Part shown: positions 31,539 through 38,289 of the stretch, piece after piece
Layout of the letters: every line of letters begins with the position of its first letter
Numbering within the stretch: the stretch's first letter is position 1
Source of the DNA: Simplicispira psychrophila DSM 11588
Lineage (GTDB): Bacteria > Pseudomonadota > Gammaproteobacteria > Burkholderiales > Burkholderiaceae_C
Direction of reading: 5' to 3'
Length of the DNA stretch: 64,000 nucleotides
NCBI RefSeq assembly: GCF_000688255.1
Contig: NZ_JHYS01000004.1
Coordinates: 124,001 to 188,000 of the forward strand
Made by a program: the position numbers and the translations under genes
The notes under the pieces: model-generated
Told to the model about the DNA's origin: nothing
Database searches by the model: none
The model's input: the letters and a program-made list of their open reading frames with translations, nothing else

Positions 31539-31600
31539 AGTTAATGCCAAATATGGCTCTAGGGCTTACGCATTAAGCGTAAGCAGCTATTTATTTGATG
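31539..31600 (+). repeat. Dispersed repeat variant overlapping the ykgJ-like 3' end
   Basis: GCCAAATATGGCTCTAGGGC, TTACGCATTAAGCGTAAGCA, then GCTATTTATTTGATGG. The core is replaced by a GCTTACGC/GCGTAAGC palindrome, but the ends match the family. Confidence 0.6.
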
Positions 31601-31853
31601 GCTTTTCCAGGCTGGCACACACCTGAAGGTTCAAGGCGACAAATTCGTCCCATGCGTACTTGTGCGCATAGCGCAGCGCATACATCCGATCCACGCGGCA
31701 AATATCTGGCCGTTCTTCATAAATGGTGCAGGATTTACGTGCCATATCGTAATGCCTGCACGTTCCATCGCCACGATCCAGAAACTGTGTTTCATCGGCA
31801 ATGTGAACATGCTGGCAACATAGACCGCATTGGGTGCAGGGGAATGGAGTCAT
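31587..31853 (-). CDS. YkgJ family cysteine-cluster protein
   Basis: An 88-residue protein. FPCTQCGLCCQHV near the N-terminus gives C-x2-C-x2-CC. TCRHYD, SCTIYEERPDICRVD and VCASLEKP supply further Cys. This is the YkgJ/CxxCxxCC family, thought to bind Fe-S or zinc; its role is unknown. ATG 31853 places FPC directly after the start as in homologues. A GTG at 31880 would overlap the dynamin stop by eight bases. It is the last intact gene of the dynamin operon. Confidence 0.75.
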   Translation of the reverse strand: MTPFPCTQCGLCCQHVHIADETQFLDRGDGTCRHYDMARKSCTIYEERPDICRVDRMYALRYAHKYAWDEFVALNLQVCASLEKPSNK

Positions 31854-31872
31854 CCGGCTCTGGATGCTGTTG

Positions 31873-33525
31873 TCACGCACTCAATGCCTGCTGCTGGATA
31901 GTCACCCATTTTTGTAAGCGCTCGCTGGCGAGTCTTTCGGTATCGCTAAAACCTTCTCGCAGCTTGTCTACTTGAGCATTCAACTGGGCAAAAAAAACAT
32001 CAATTTCTTGCAGGATGTTGGCGCGCATGAATTGTTTGAAGCCATCAGCCAGTTCTTGCGAAAAATCATCCATTTGCTGCTCTGCCCGTTCACGCGCAAG
32101 GCGTTGTGCTTCCAACTGCTGGCGCATCGCTTTTTCTTCGGGGTCATCGGAGAACATATCCCACAGAGCCGTCCCTACCGTGACGACTGTTCCAACATAA
32201 GGAATATATTTACTTATCACAGTGCCAGCCCATTTTTCCATGGTCTTGGGGCCAATGCCCTTCATCAGTGATGGCAGCAGTTCTTTGACTGTTTTCAGTG
32301 TGCTGACGATATGCTCTGGCCTGACCATCGATGCCATTTGTTTAGAAGCCTGCGCTGCCATTTCGGCAGAAATGCCGGAGGATTTTTGCGTTCGGGGCAT
32401 AAGCTGCTCCAAGTCTGGTGCGCTCTCTATTGCTGGAATCTCGCCTTCACGGGTGTATTGCCCCACTTGGGGCATGGCGGCTTGCAACTCCTCAATATCT
32501 TGTTGTGCGATGGAAACAACCTCCTGTAGTCGGTTGCTCAGGTGCCTTTGCATCTGTTCGCTCGCCTGCTGCATGATGCCCTCGATTTTCTGCTGGCAAT
32601 CCTCTGGGCTGGTGCGCAGGGCGCGCTTGGTTTTTTCGTAAATCGCTTGTCGTTCTCTATCGATTTCATGCACGATTTCAGACGACAGCCCTGATTTCTC
32701 CCGAACCATCTGGCGCAGAAATTTGTCAAATTTTTTGGAGATATCGGTACTGCCTTGCTGGCTACCTTGCGCTTGCACCTGTGCATTCAAAAACTCTACA
32801 AGTTGGTACTTGATACGGTTATACACATCGTCCGGCGAAATACCATCTAAGAAATCTATCAGCTGATTTTTGAAGGCGGGGTAGCCGCTTAATTCCACCA
32901 ATTCAGGTTTGCCCTTCAATTGCCCGAGCAGGGCGCGTTTGGCGTTGATTTTGACAATGGGAATTTCCTTAAGGATATTGTCAAGGCCGCGCAGTGTGGC
33001 AATCCGCTGGAGTTGTTCGCGGGTCTGATTTTTGAGCTTGATGTAATCCTCATCACTTAAGCCCTTTTTGTCGTTGAATACCATGAACACCTGCTTGTGT
33101 TCCGCCAGCAAATCCACCAGCACTTCCAGCGTCTTGGCTTCTTCCACTGTGCCCAGTGGATCGACCACAAAGATGACTGCGTCTGCCTTGAGCATCTGGG
33201 CTTTGGTCACGTCTTCATGGGCAATGGGCGCATCCACGCCAGGGGTATCGAGAATGCTGTATTTATCCCAAGCGTAAGCCGTTACTTGGTCGGTCAAGGG
33301 AATGTCGTCCATTGCTGCCTCTTCCCGGCCCAGCAGCACATTGATCAAGGTGCTTTTGCCTGCGTTATAGACGCCATAAACCATGATGCAGGCATCTGGC
33401 TTACGCTTTTTTTCTTCAAAAATCTGCTCAATAGGCATGAATGGTGCAGCAGATTCTGGCGCAGTCGCGGCGAAATTTCGCGCCTGTTCGTAGGCATTGA
33501 GCAGCTGGGTGGAATTGATTTTCAT
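31873..33525 (-). CDS. Dynamin-like GTPase (second of pair)
   Basis: A 550-residue large GTPase. G1 is YGVYNAGKSTL (about 50-60) and G3 is ILDTPGVD (D93). The usual N/TKxD is replaced by FNDKKG near 150. The middle is long and helical with coiled-coil features. A hydrophobic hairpin (ISKYIPYVGTVVTVGTALW, near 432-455) could act as a membrane paddle, followed by a Glu/Gln-rich coiled coil. Bacterial dynamins of this layout remodel or fuse membranes, often as pairs. ATG 33525 is preferred to a TTG at 33540, because the probable true end of the upstream gene lies at 33537. Confidence 0.8.
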   Translation of the reverse strand: MKINSTQLLNAYEQARNFAATAPESAAPFMPIEQIFEEKKRKPDACIMVYGVYNAGKSTLINVLLGREEAAMDDIPLTDQVTAYAWDKYSILDTPGVDAPIAHEDVTKAQMLKADAVIFVVDPLGTVEEAKTLEVLVDLLAEHKQVFMVFNDKKGLSDEDYIKLKNQTREQLQRIATLRGLDNILKEIPIVKINAKRALLGQLKGKPELVELSGYPAFKNQLIDFLDGISPDDVYNRIKYQLVEFLNAQVQAQGSQQGSTDISKKFDKFLRQMVREKSGLSSEIVHEIDRERQAIYEKTKRALRTSPEDCQQKIEGIMQQASEQMQRHLSNRLQEVVSIAQQDIEELQAAMPQVGQYTREGEIPAIESAPDLEQLMPRTQKSSGISAEMAAQASKQMASMVRPEHIVSTLKTVKELLPSLMKGIGPKTMEKWAGTVISKYIPYVGTVVTVGTALWDMFSDDPEEKAMRQQLEAQRLARERAEQQMDDFSQELADGFKQFMRANILQEIDVFFAQLNAQVDKLREGFSDTERLASERLQKWVTIQQQALSA

Positions 33526-33613
33526 GATCTTGGCATTCAATGTGAGAGTTGGGCCTTGTTAAGGATTTTTTGCAAATCTGAATCGAACTGTTCAATTTCA
33601 GCGGACAGTTGTT

Positions 33614-36997: not shown

Positions 36998-37021
36998 GAC
37001 TGATCCTTAACTGTTGTGGCG

Positions 37022-37357
37022 TTACTTCATCTCTGCCAAAAGGCGTTGCTTGAGTTGCGCAAACTCTTCCGCCGTCAGCGCACCGCTCTGATGCAGGGCA
37101 AACAGGGCTTGGAGTTCAGTAACGTAATCTCGGCTGATTTTTGGGGGCATCTCTGCGCCATTGGTCAATGAATAGGGCATCGACTCCTGCTCCTGCTCCT
37201 GCTCCTGCTCCTGCTCCTGCTCCTGCTCCTGCTCCTGCTCCTGCTCTTGGTCGCCTATGCGCGCACCGATTCGCCCGATGGCAGAAACGCCGGCGTAGAT
37301 GCCGTACAGCAAACAGCCCACCACAAACAGCACGATCAGTAAAAAAATCAGTTGCAT
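37022..37357 (-). CDS. SHOCT-domain membrane protein with Gln-Glu repeat
   Basis: A 111-residue protein. MQLIFLLIVLFVVGCLLYGIYAGV is an N-terminal membrane segment. Eleven QE dipeptides follow (about 38-59), coded by a hexanucleotide tract. The C-terminus LQALFALHQSGALTAEEFAQLKQRLLAEM is a SHOCT (short C-terminal) domain, usually an oligomerisation module. The ATG at 37357 has AGAGG upstream; a GTG at 37369 would overlap the WYL stop by two bases. It lies 8 bp after the WYL gene. Confidence 0.75.
   Translation of the reverse strand: MQLIFLLIVLFVVGCLLYGIYAGVSAIGRIGARIGDQEQEQEQEQEQEQEQEQEQEQESMPYSLTNGAEMPPKISRDYVTELQALFALHQSGALTAEEFAQLKQRLLAEMK
37184..37249 (+). repeat. Hexanucleotide microsatellite (CTCCTG)10 plus one variant unit
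   Basis: Ten perfect CTCCTG units and one CTCTTG encode the QE repeat of the SHOCT protein on the minus strand. Unit loss or gain keeps the frame but changes linker length. Confidence 0.9.
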
Positions 37358-37365
37358 CACACCTC

Positions 37366-38289
37366 TCACAATGCCAGCGCCTGCCGCAACCCCGCCACCA
37401 ACTCCTCATGCCACTGCACCGGCTTGACGATGCGCACGTTGGGCAGCCAGTAGCGCACCACAGGCAGTAACTGATTCGGGTGGTTGATGTGCGTGGTCAC
37501 CAGCAGCGAGCCGTCGGCGTCGGCGCGCTGCTGTTGCTGCGGTAGCAGGGCGCGGCGGGCGAAATAGTGAGCCACCTCGGGTGCTACGCGCAGTAGCACT
37601 TCGGTGGTGCCTTGGGTGAACCACACGTCGTCCTTGGCGTTGATGTAGTCCTGATGCGCCGGGTCAGGAGTAAAGCGGCTGGTCTCGTTCACGGTCAGTT
37701 CAGTGATCAAGGCGACGCTGAAGTTTTTCAGCAGACCGCCCTCGATCGCGGCCAAATACCACACGCCGTTTTTGTGGATCAGGCGGTAGGGTTGGGCGTG
37801 GCGCGGCTTGGCTTTGTAGGCGAACTGGCATTCATGGCGCTGCTCGATGGCGTCTTGCAGCAGGGCAAAGATGTGCGTGGTGTGCGGGCCTTGGGCGCGC
37901 AAATCCTCTTGCGGCGTGGCTTGCACTTGCATGGCGCGCTTGGGTTCCGGGGTTTCTAGCTGCTCTAGCAGGTAGCGCAGGCTGGCATCGGGAAACAAGC
38001 GCTCGGTGCCGGCGAGGCGGGCGTAGTCGTGCAAATGCCGTGTGGGAATGGTGCTGCGGGCGGCGTGCGCCAGTTGCCAGTGCCCGTTGGGGCCGCGCTC
38101 GGCGATGCCATGCAGGCGTTCGCCCAAATCGCGCTCGATGGTGCGTACGTCCACGTTGAACGCCTGCGCCAACTGGTGTTTGTCCAGGCTGTCGCCTTGG
38201 TGCAGCAGCGCCAAGATGTGGGACAGGCGCTGGGCCAGTTTTTCTCCTTTGGCGCTGGCGCGGTGCGGGGTGGTGGTAGCGGTGGGCAT
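37366..38289 (-). CDS. WYL-domain transcriptional regulator
   Basis: A 307-residue DNA-binding regulator. The N-terminal helix-turn-helix includes LAQRLSHILALLHQGDSLDKHQLAQAFNVDVRTIERDLGERL (about 18-59). The WYL domain follows, with QPYRLIHKNGVWYLAAIEGG near 165-184, then a WCX-like C-terminal domain ending VKPVQWHEELVAGL. WYL regulators (for example BrxR and CapW) often repress phage-defence operons. It is the first gene of the eight-gene dynamin operon. A palindrome 115 bp upstream is a candidate binding site. Confidence 0.85.
   Translation of the reverse strand: MPTATTTPHRASAKGEKLAQRLSHILALLHQGDSLDKHQLAQAFNVDVRTIERDLGERLHGIAERGPNGHWQLAHAARSTIPTRHLHDYARLAGTERLFPDASLRYLLEQLETPEPKRAMQVQATPQEDLRAQGPHTTHIFALLQDAIEQRHECQFAYKAKPRHAQPYRLIHKNGVWYLAAIEGGLLKNFSVALITELTVNETSRFTPDPAHQDYINAKDDVWFTQGTTEVLLRVAPEVAHYFARRALLPQQQQRADADGSLLVTTHINHPNQLLPVVRYWLPNVRIVKPVQWHEELVAGLRQALAL

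Follow-up and report, generated by a model that had tools for sequence, protein, structure and literature searches.

What does a run of eight genes joining a WYL regulator to three GTPases do for the bacteria that carry it? The question arises from a 64,000-nucleotide stretch of the Simplicispira psychrophila DSM 11588 genome (contig NZ_JHYS01000004.1, positions 124,001 to 188,000; hereafter the window, numbered from its first letter), where all eight open reading frames (ORFs) are present on the minus strand at 31587..38289 in the window's ORF list. An earlier note, made from the letters alone, had proposed a membrane-acting defence or stress system. We find that the unit of conservation is a four-gene core, encoding a short GTPase (sGTP), a membrane-anchored coiled-coil protein (TMcc) and two dynamin-like GTPases (dyn1 and dyn2), and that the operon was acquired horizontally. 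Judging from the sequences, we give about an even chance to the reading that these genes encode a mobile dynamin-type GTPase machine guarding the cytoplasmic membrane, which in its four-gene form would serve mainly in defence and in a two-gene form would have been recruited to aromatic-acid catabolism.

A mobile four-gene core

Relatives were collected from plasmids, species genomes and genome searches, with a loose first pass that limits the candidates scored, so that distant members can be missed. The resulting set of 16 loci comprises the window and 15 others that carry a dyn1 or dyn2 not of the catabolic kind, and excludes L071 (benzoate/catechol, or ben/cat, type) and L072 (YkgJ only). 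The core sGTP-TMcc-dyn1-dyn2 is complete in 11 of the 16, in Pseudomonadota and Campylobacterota: the window, a Klebsiella plasmid (L001), Photobacterium (L004), Duganella (L006), Pseudomonas akapageensis (L008), Campylobacter (L009) and, within the Campylobacterales, L082, L083, L085, L086 and L087. Gene order is the same in ten of these eleven, L087 being the one that differs, and TMcc lies between sGTP and dyn1 in ten. Because the four genes stay together in most loci of two phyla, the arrangement is more than chance. Among the incomplete loci, contig ends truncate L007, L010 and L070, L005 has dyn1 and dyn2 only, and no dyn2 was seen on the 5.8-kb contig of L084. The earlier note had asked whether the same eight genes stay together in other genomes; the core does, and none of the other loci examined has all eight.

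Relatives of dyn2 occur in 1/399 genomes of the order (E 1e-20) and those of dyn1 in 1/369 genomes of the class (E 1e-15), in three of 398 genomes of the phylum (E 1e-10; the window's own, G804 and G255, the last of ben/cat type), in 1/78 genomes of the order of G804 and in eight of 248 Campylobacterales (E 1e-10), one of which, G1307, is borderline (1.0e-10) and was left out of the analysis. The species-genome scan yielded at least 57 loci, five of which were used (L006-L010). The other 52 were dropped; their matches fall within query residues 16-250, the G-domain end, and their sizes often fit housekeeping GTPases, although a few of them, such as L011, may represent other dynamins. A 3.7-kb stretch of the Klebsiella core had no match in E. 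coli genomes, and a PHROGs search returned one strong match, that of the WYL protein only, to a family without assigned function.

In S. psychrophila the operon sits on a genomic island. In nine of the 12 congener regions fetched the site is empty, the flanks up to 28,591-28,623 and from 39,235-39,347 being no more than about 155 bp apart; of the remaining three regions, L092 was of insufficient length, and in L096 and L100 the far flank was not seen. Occurrence of dyn1 in one of 26 genomes of the genus (1/15 of the nearly complete ones), together with these empty sites, rules out a resident chromosomal operon of the genus. Counted in 2-kb bins, GC content is about 0.50 over the core and 0.57-0.66 at a distance from the island, and GC at third codon positions (GC3) is 0.50-0.58 in the four core genes and those of the YkgJ-like and zinc-ribbon proteins, 0.69 in the SHOCT gene and 0.815 in the WYL gene. 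This last value is close to that of host genes such as accD (0.801) and lysS (0.811), which may mean that the WYL gene came from a host-like source and was added to the others. The island also carries a PIN/Phd pair, whose antitoxin match is below its cut-off. A further sign of mobility is the presence of relatives on 29 Klebsiella, Raoultella and Citrobacter plasmid records.

Some further features of the island were observed. The two copies of a 93-bp repeat bracket the HI1420-type addiction module beside accD. The short ORF at 31114-31467, next to the operon, is a truncated relative (70% over about 100 aa) of another gene on the island, 28713-29414; the latter matches CARF-HEPN weakly (E=0.002). 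The Conchiformibius operon likewise has an accD gene (64% identical; L007, 6555-7406) at a distance of about 2 kb, in a different orientation to the operon than in the window.

Table 1. Features of the operon and its island (window positions; - marks the minus strand).
Feature	Position	Description	Profile match or relation
WYL regulator	37366..38289 (-)	WYL/WCX transcriptional regulator, 307 aa	Pfam WYL E=3.6e-10, WCX 4.4e-11
SHOCT protein	37022..37357 (-), alternative start 37369	small transmembrane protein, QE-rich repeat	Pfam SHOCT 2.9e-7
Zinc ribbon	36806..36997 (-)	zinc-ribbon-like protein, 63 aa, CxxC...SDVL...CPKC	no Pfam model above cut-off
sGTP	35972..36793 (-)	short GTPase, 273 aa	MMR_HSR1 7.5e-12
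TMcc	35375..35962 (-)	N-terminally membrane-anchored, acidic-linker coiled-coil protein, 195 aa	no Pfam match at E 1
dyn1	33614..35359 (-)	dynamin-like GTPase, 581 aa to early stop	Dynamin_N 6.5e-10
dyn2	31873..33525 (-), alternative start 33540	dynamin-like GTPase, 550 aa from ATG	MMR_HSR1 1.9e-13, Dynamin_N 5.9e-11
YkgJ-like protein	31587..31853 (-), alternative start 31880	CxxCxxCC protein, 88-97 aa, putative metal- or Fe-S-binding	Pfam 8.4e-8
Genomic island	28616..39235, ends approximate	about 10.6 kb; PIN/Phd toxin-antitoxin pair, operon, HI1420-type addiction module	absent from congeners
Direct repeat copy 1	38439..38530	about 93 bp, hairpin-like stretch	95% identical to copy 2
Direct repeat copy 2	39228..39319	beside accD 3' end	aligns to accD-flanking sequence of congener L091

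The close packing described by the earlier note is confirmed by the coordinates (Table 1): counted from the ATG starts, the gaps are 8, 24, 12, 9, 15, 88 and 19 bp, the 88-bp one preceding dyn2. This wider gap reflects a broken reading frame near the C-terminus of dyn1, where about 25 codons of coding-like sequence continue past the stop in another frame and end 11 bp before the dyn2 ATG, the gap that the note had given for a restored frame. A profile search likewise places one internal TGA in the window copy of dyn1, and in an alignment of eight dyn1 proteins the other seven extend beyond its end. The break may represent decay, slippage or a sequence error. That the operon is decayed cargo, inactive in this genome, would agree with the early stop and with its presence in a single genome of the genus; we consider this quite unlikely, as the other seven frames are open and the GTPase and paddle-like parts of dyn1 lie ahead of the break. 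Two local observations complete the description of the operon: a run of GAGCAG-type hexamers at 37185-37250, encoding the QE repeat of the SHOCT gene and possibly length-variable (seen by eye), and a weak inverted repeat, TGCGACA-N5-TGTCGCA (38403-38421), about 110 bp before the WYL start and of a size that chance could give.

Dynamin-like GTPases and their distance from LeoABC

The three GTPases all match the Pfam models Dynamin_N and MMR_HSR1, Dynamin_N exceeding its cut-off in dyn1 and dyn2 (39.7 and 43.1 versus 27 bits) alongside other GTPase models. Their G1 and G3 motifs are preserved (GLMNAGKS and DTPG in sGTP, which also has the G4 motif SKID; GKVKSGKS and DSPG in dyn1; GVYNAGKS and DTPGVDA in dyn2). 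A Gly-zipper or paddle-like stretch occupies approximately residues 490-528 of dyn1 (Gly-zipper Pfam E=4e-4, below cut-off), and hydropathy maxima fall at comparable C-terminal places in dyn1 (500), dyn2 (436; its value, 1.25, is below the 1.4 mark) and LeoA (454). A profile of nine dyn2 sequences matches the bacterial dynamin BDLP (2j68) over positions 87-531 (8.8e-10), LeoA (4aur) over 89-542 (1.4e-5) and 5owv, a Campylobacter dynamin-like protein (DLP), over 88-298. The dyn1 profile (eight sequences) matches 2j68 at 2.1e-12, only over positions 184-405, many of its lower matches being coiled coils. The operon does contain a pair of dynamin-like GTPases, as had been proposed, with hydrophobic paddle-like stretches that are Gly-rich in dyn1. 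Two other proteins have N-terminal hydrophobic segments: TMcc (peak 2.07 at residue 5), where an acidic stretch and a charged, helix-like sequence follow, and the SHOCT protein (peak 2.82 at residue 3).

The three-GTPase set had been likened to LeoABC of enterotoxigenic E. coli, and this resemblance survives as remote kinship, not as membership. Against the PADLOC LeoA model dyn2 scores 127.7 bits, sGTP 82.9 and dyn1 79.5, versus 502.7 for the true LeoA of L085, and the best LeoBC score is 115.4 (dyn2) versus 432 for the LeoBC of L085, so that the best scores of the window are about a quarter of those of true Leo proteins. With the NCBIfam model DLP_LeoA_gen dyn1 reaches 29.0 bits for a cut-off of 325, and the model is not among the matches listed for dyn2 and sGTP. 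In a G-domain tree of 53 proteins, dyn1 (support 98/95), dyn2 (99/92) and sGTP (96/96; the window copy with 13 others) form one branch each, as do LeoA and LeoBC. When eight rows of catabolic (cat) type are added (61 proteins), LeoBC falls next to dyn1, which is then not one branch; the long branch of LeoBC makes this placement unsure, and a single dyn1 branch is not rejected (p-AU 0.42). With the cat-type rows and without LeoBC dyn1 forms a single branch once more (98/85; dyn2 99/98, sGTP 96/97), and LeoA and LeoBC are separate in both trees containing both. Four Leo pairs, a small number, served as yardstick, and the trees use the later start of L006, whose row in alignment A6 had an N-terminal overhang from too early a start. 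Scores and separate branches together rule out filing the operon under LeoABC/Eleos.

Eleos is an anti-phage system, and the likeness to it extends to organization: dynamin-like GTPases stand in tandem and are carried by islands and plasmids, and a WYL gene immediately precedes the Leo pair of a Chryseobacterium (L104, 924-1838); WYL control may therefore be common to dynamin operons. The present operon differs in its four-gene core, with sGTP and TMcc, and in its WYL, ribbon and YkgJ partners. The bacterial DLPs of solved structure (BDLP and 5owv) occur singly or in pairs of genes and are not known to have an sGTP or TMcc partner. General GTPase models and remote Leo matches were obtained from Pfam, PADLOC 2.0 and NCBIfam, and no model of this system. 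Searches of open-licence full-text literature returned no paper joining dynamin with YkgJ, nor dynamin with WYL domain and defense, and among the papers listed by other searches none was recognised as describing this system. A LeoA-like gene of Pseudomonas is the subject of PMC6344628, which does not enter the present argument.

The remote homology to LeoA and LeoBC also brings in a role proposed for LeoABC of E. coli H10407, that of an outer-membrane-vesicle or secretion module. According to Michie et al. 2014 (PMC4159319), loss of leoA or leoB reduced vesicle cargo by about 50%, and vesicle output is on this account a possible activity of the present GTPases too. We regard a vesicle or secretion module as improbable, given that the GTPases are not LeoA or LeoBC by profile score or tree and that no secretion genes were noted next to four-gene loci, where no systematic scan was made.

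Variable partners and contrasting neighbourhoods

Around the core the gene content changes. A WYL or WCX domain occurs in six of the 16 loci, its gene preceding the core in the window, L082 and L083 and following it in L085, L086 and L087 (WCX only); L085 and L086 are near copies and so not independent, and WYL was not seen at the other ten, several of them cut by contig ends. The earlier note had singled out the WYL gene, and it does recur as a partner. WYL-regulated defence operons such as those of BrxR and CapW have this gene at the operon head, as does the window, the position across the family being mixed. WYL domains were counted in 11 genomes: G1340 and G1350 contain a single one, situated at this locus, G1324 and G1171 a second one elsewhere as well, and the window genome four; the single WYL of G1221 is on another contig, its locus sitting on a short one. 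None was found by profile in the genome of L087, where the gene next to the core has the WCX domain.

Of the partners that the earlier note could assign to no system, zinc ribbon and YkgJ recur and SHOCT does not. A ribbon of the window type is present in five of the 16 loci (window, L007, L082, L085 and L086; phmmer scores of 18-28 bits, weak, for the four relatives), and alignment with those of L007, L082 and L085 reveals a common SDV(L/M) motif. YkgJ-like proteins occur in four (window, L006, L007 and L009), the window copy being 44-51% identical to those after dyn2 in the other three and all four operons spanning 44-57%; for comparison, the dyn2 proteins of the Campylobacter and window loci share 21% identity. 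In five genomes searched by profile, Duganella and Conchiformibius have one YkgJ each, Campylobacter two (one outside the operon, in L072), and the Pseudomonas and Lachnospiraceae genomes no match. This second Campylobacter copy (L072, 3370-3633) is of the operon type and follows a different set of genes, which encode an AAA_15 ATPase-like protein and two others that match nothing in Pfam. SHOCT was rejected as a conserved part, its only match in the other 15 loci (phmmer E 0.05) being a low-complexity one to a TMcc. Other families were seen beside the core: a family of proteins starting with ...ILYNPY at L082 (6483-7031), L083 (12630-13721), L085 (6114-7214; no Pfam or PADLOC match) and L086 (12233-13129), and two further small GTPases, with septin- and AIG1-like Pfam matches among others, ahead of the core at L008 (239-2598) and L004 (1-1389, about 4.4 kb upstream).

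Several neighbourhoods contain defence genes. On a Photobacterium toruni plasmid (L004) the core lies between csm6-cas1-cas2 and RAMP genes, with arrays of clustered regularly interspaced short palindromic repeats (CRISPR) of one repeat on both sides, and at L070 dyn2 and a small ORF are followed by genes for Cas6, a Csx1/CARF protein and a Cmr1-like RAMP protein. A true LeoBC-LeoA pair is inserted between the ribbon and WYL genes of L085, with a type II methyltransferase beyond, the same slot in the closely related L086 holding a radical-SAM gene (weak match to the viperin model) and one further gene. L082 encodes a 1603-aa DEAD/UvrD helicase beside WYL, L005 a RelA/SpoT protein (PDC-S33) and a PtuA-like ATPase, and L001 a TrlF-type ATPase upstream, its defence-model matches being of modest score.

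The type III CRISPR cases could point to an ancillary effector, whose GTPases would be set to work at the membrane once cyclic oligoadenylates have signalled. In the trees the two loci that fall within or next to type III systems, each with Csm6 or a CARF protein, are distant from one another, the window WYL protein matches PADLOC models of CRISPR-associated WYL proteins (1.4e-24) and sGTP weakly matches the Csx3 model (8e-4), though both are broad domains. No CRISPR gene was recognised at the other loci, where arrays were not searched, and no CARF or SAVED model is among the matches of the eight window proteins; we rate an effector of this kind as very unlikely.

A different context is provided by a sister pair, consisting of a longer sGTP and dyn1, found in Acinetobacter and Burkholderiales (L105, L106, L107, L108, L109 and L071). 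The pair lies between catA and catM on three Acinetobacter plasmids, follows benE in Diaphorobacter and is near catA-, catB- and catM-like genes in Caballeronia and G255; Acinetobacter johnsonii, a fourth Acinetobacter case, is known as a match only. Each cat-type group is one branch of the 61-protein tree (99/96 and 99/93). The sGTP and dyn1 of Caballeronia and G255 are 46-49% and 42-43% identical to the Acinetobacter ones, and those of L008, a four-gene locus, 41% and 43%. The pair differs in its longer sGTP (419-430 aa in copies from Acinetobacter and Diaphorobacter), in its place within aromatic catabolism clusters and in lacking separate dyn2 and TMcc genes, none being detected by profile in L071, L105, L106, L107 and L108 and none annotated in L109. 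A 2019 regulon study noted two GTPase genes with the ben/cat operons of Bordetella petrii, Acinetobacter baylyi and B. glumae; its main text does not contain the word 'dynamin' (PMC6449761). A literature search combining dynamin, benzoate, catechol and Acinetobacter returned no paper.

This linkage makes 'defence only' too narrow a description, lowers the claim that all members are anti-phage and points to membrane protection as the shared theme. It also brings forward a general envelope-stress system, in which the inner membrane would be repaired or stabilised under chemical stress (aromatic acids, solvents, metals), protection against phages being at most a by-product. Besides the sister pair and the regulon study, metal-binding accessories would suit a chemical-stress sensor, and the Klebsiella plasmid L001 carries an ArsR/SmtB regulator and a Dps gene about 6-7 kb past dyn2, beyond insertion sequence (IS) elements. 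We judge this explanation unlikely, if a serious one: the ben/cat branch is without a separate dyn2 or TMcc gene, no catabolic operon was noted at four-gene loci, whose flanks were scanned in part, and these loci are patchy, lie on islands and plasmids and twice fall in type III CRISPR loci.

A candidate guard of the cytoplasmic membrane

How might a mobile GTPase machine guard the membrane? In the mechanism that we propose, dyn1 and dyn2 would pair heterotypically, TMcc would be the anchor collecting them at the inner membrane, and sGTP would act as a switch or as a third member of the heteromer. GTP-driven assembly would then lead to tethering, resealing or sequestering of damaged membrane. 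The WYL regulator, where present, would keep expression low until stress or infection, with the zinc ribbon and the cysteine-cluster protein as small metal-binding accessories. The main use of the four-gene form would most likely be defence against phages and other mobile DNA, whereas aromatic-acid catabolism, with its membrane-toxic substrates, would have recruited the two-gene form. DynA of Bacillus subtilis resembles the proposed machine as a bacterial dynamin acting at the membrane; it is a single protein, a fusion of two dynamins, and is not known to belong to a comparable operon. Bacterial DLPs have been described as pairing heterotypically (PMC6104087), and a bacterial dynamin can protect a population in the way envisaged, since DynA delays lysis after phage infection (PMC8844932).

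Defence is plausible as part of what had been proposed for the window, given type III CRISPR genes at 2/16 loci, a true Leo pair at 1/16 and carriage on plasmids and islands; defence as the sole role is weakened by the ben/cat pair. A number of observations weigh against the membrane-guard reading as a whole. The association tallies are raw counts without a background rate, and several PADLOC matches in the flanks are weak or to generic ATPases. At L006, L007 and L009, where ORFs were read by eye, no neighbouring gene was recognised as one of defence, nor was any among the L083 proteins scanned, L087 being outside the scan. WYL is absent at the locus in Duganella (two in the genome) and Pseudomonas (three), and the profile found none in the L007 and L009 genomes. 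When dyn2 was searched against the PDB, both as single sequence and as profile, the top matches were Der GTPases in the G domain, ahead of dynamins. TMcc is poorly conserved and assigned partly by eye (by eye in L086; only 14-27 bits in L082, L083, L085 and L087). No relative of dyn2 was found in the phage collection, nor of dyn2 or dyn1 in viral contigs. The broken frame of dyn1 means that the window copy may not be functional, and the sister pair of sGTP and dyn1 is placed in benzoate/catechol clusters.

A bolder form of the proposal is possible, if doubtful: a distinct, widely mobile immune system of prokaryotes, controlled by WYL, in which three dissimilar dynamin-type GTPases on an anchored scaffold would attack or reseal the membrane of the infected cell, some lineages being wired to type III CRISPR and one branch protecting against toxic aromatics. 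If true, this would parallel the membrane GTPase immunity of animals (GBP, IRG and GIMAP proteins). Known functions of bacterial dynamins are few, and the cooperation of unlike GTPases is little understood. Here a compact set of a short GTPase, an anchor and two dynamins recurs across phyla in contexts as contrasting as WYL regulation, type III CRISPR and benzoate catabolism. The family thus allows a direct test of whether dynamin modules are general guards of the membrane or dedicated immune machines.

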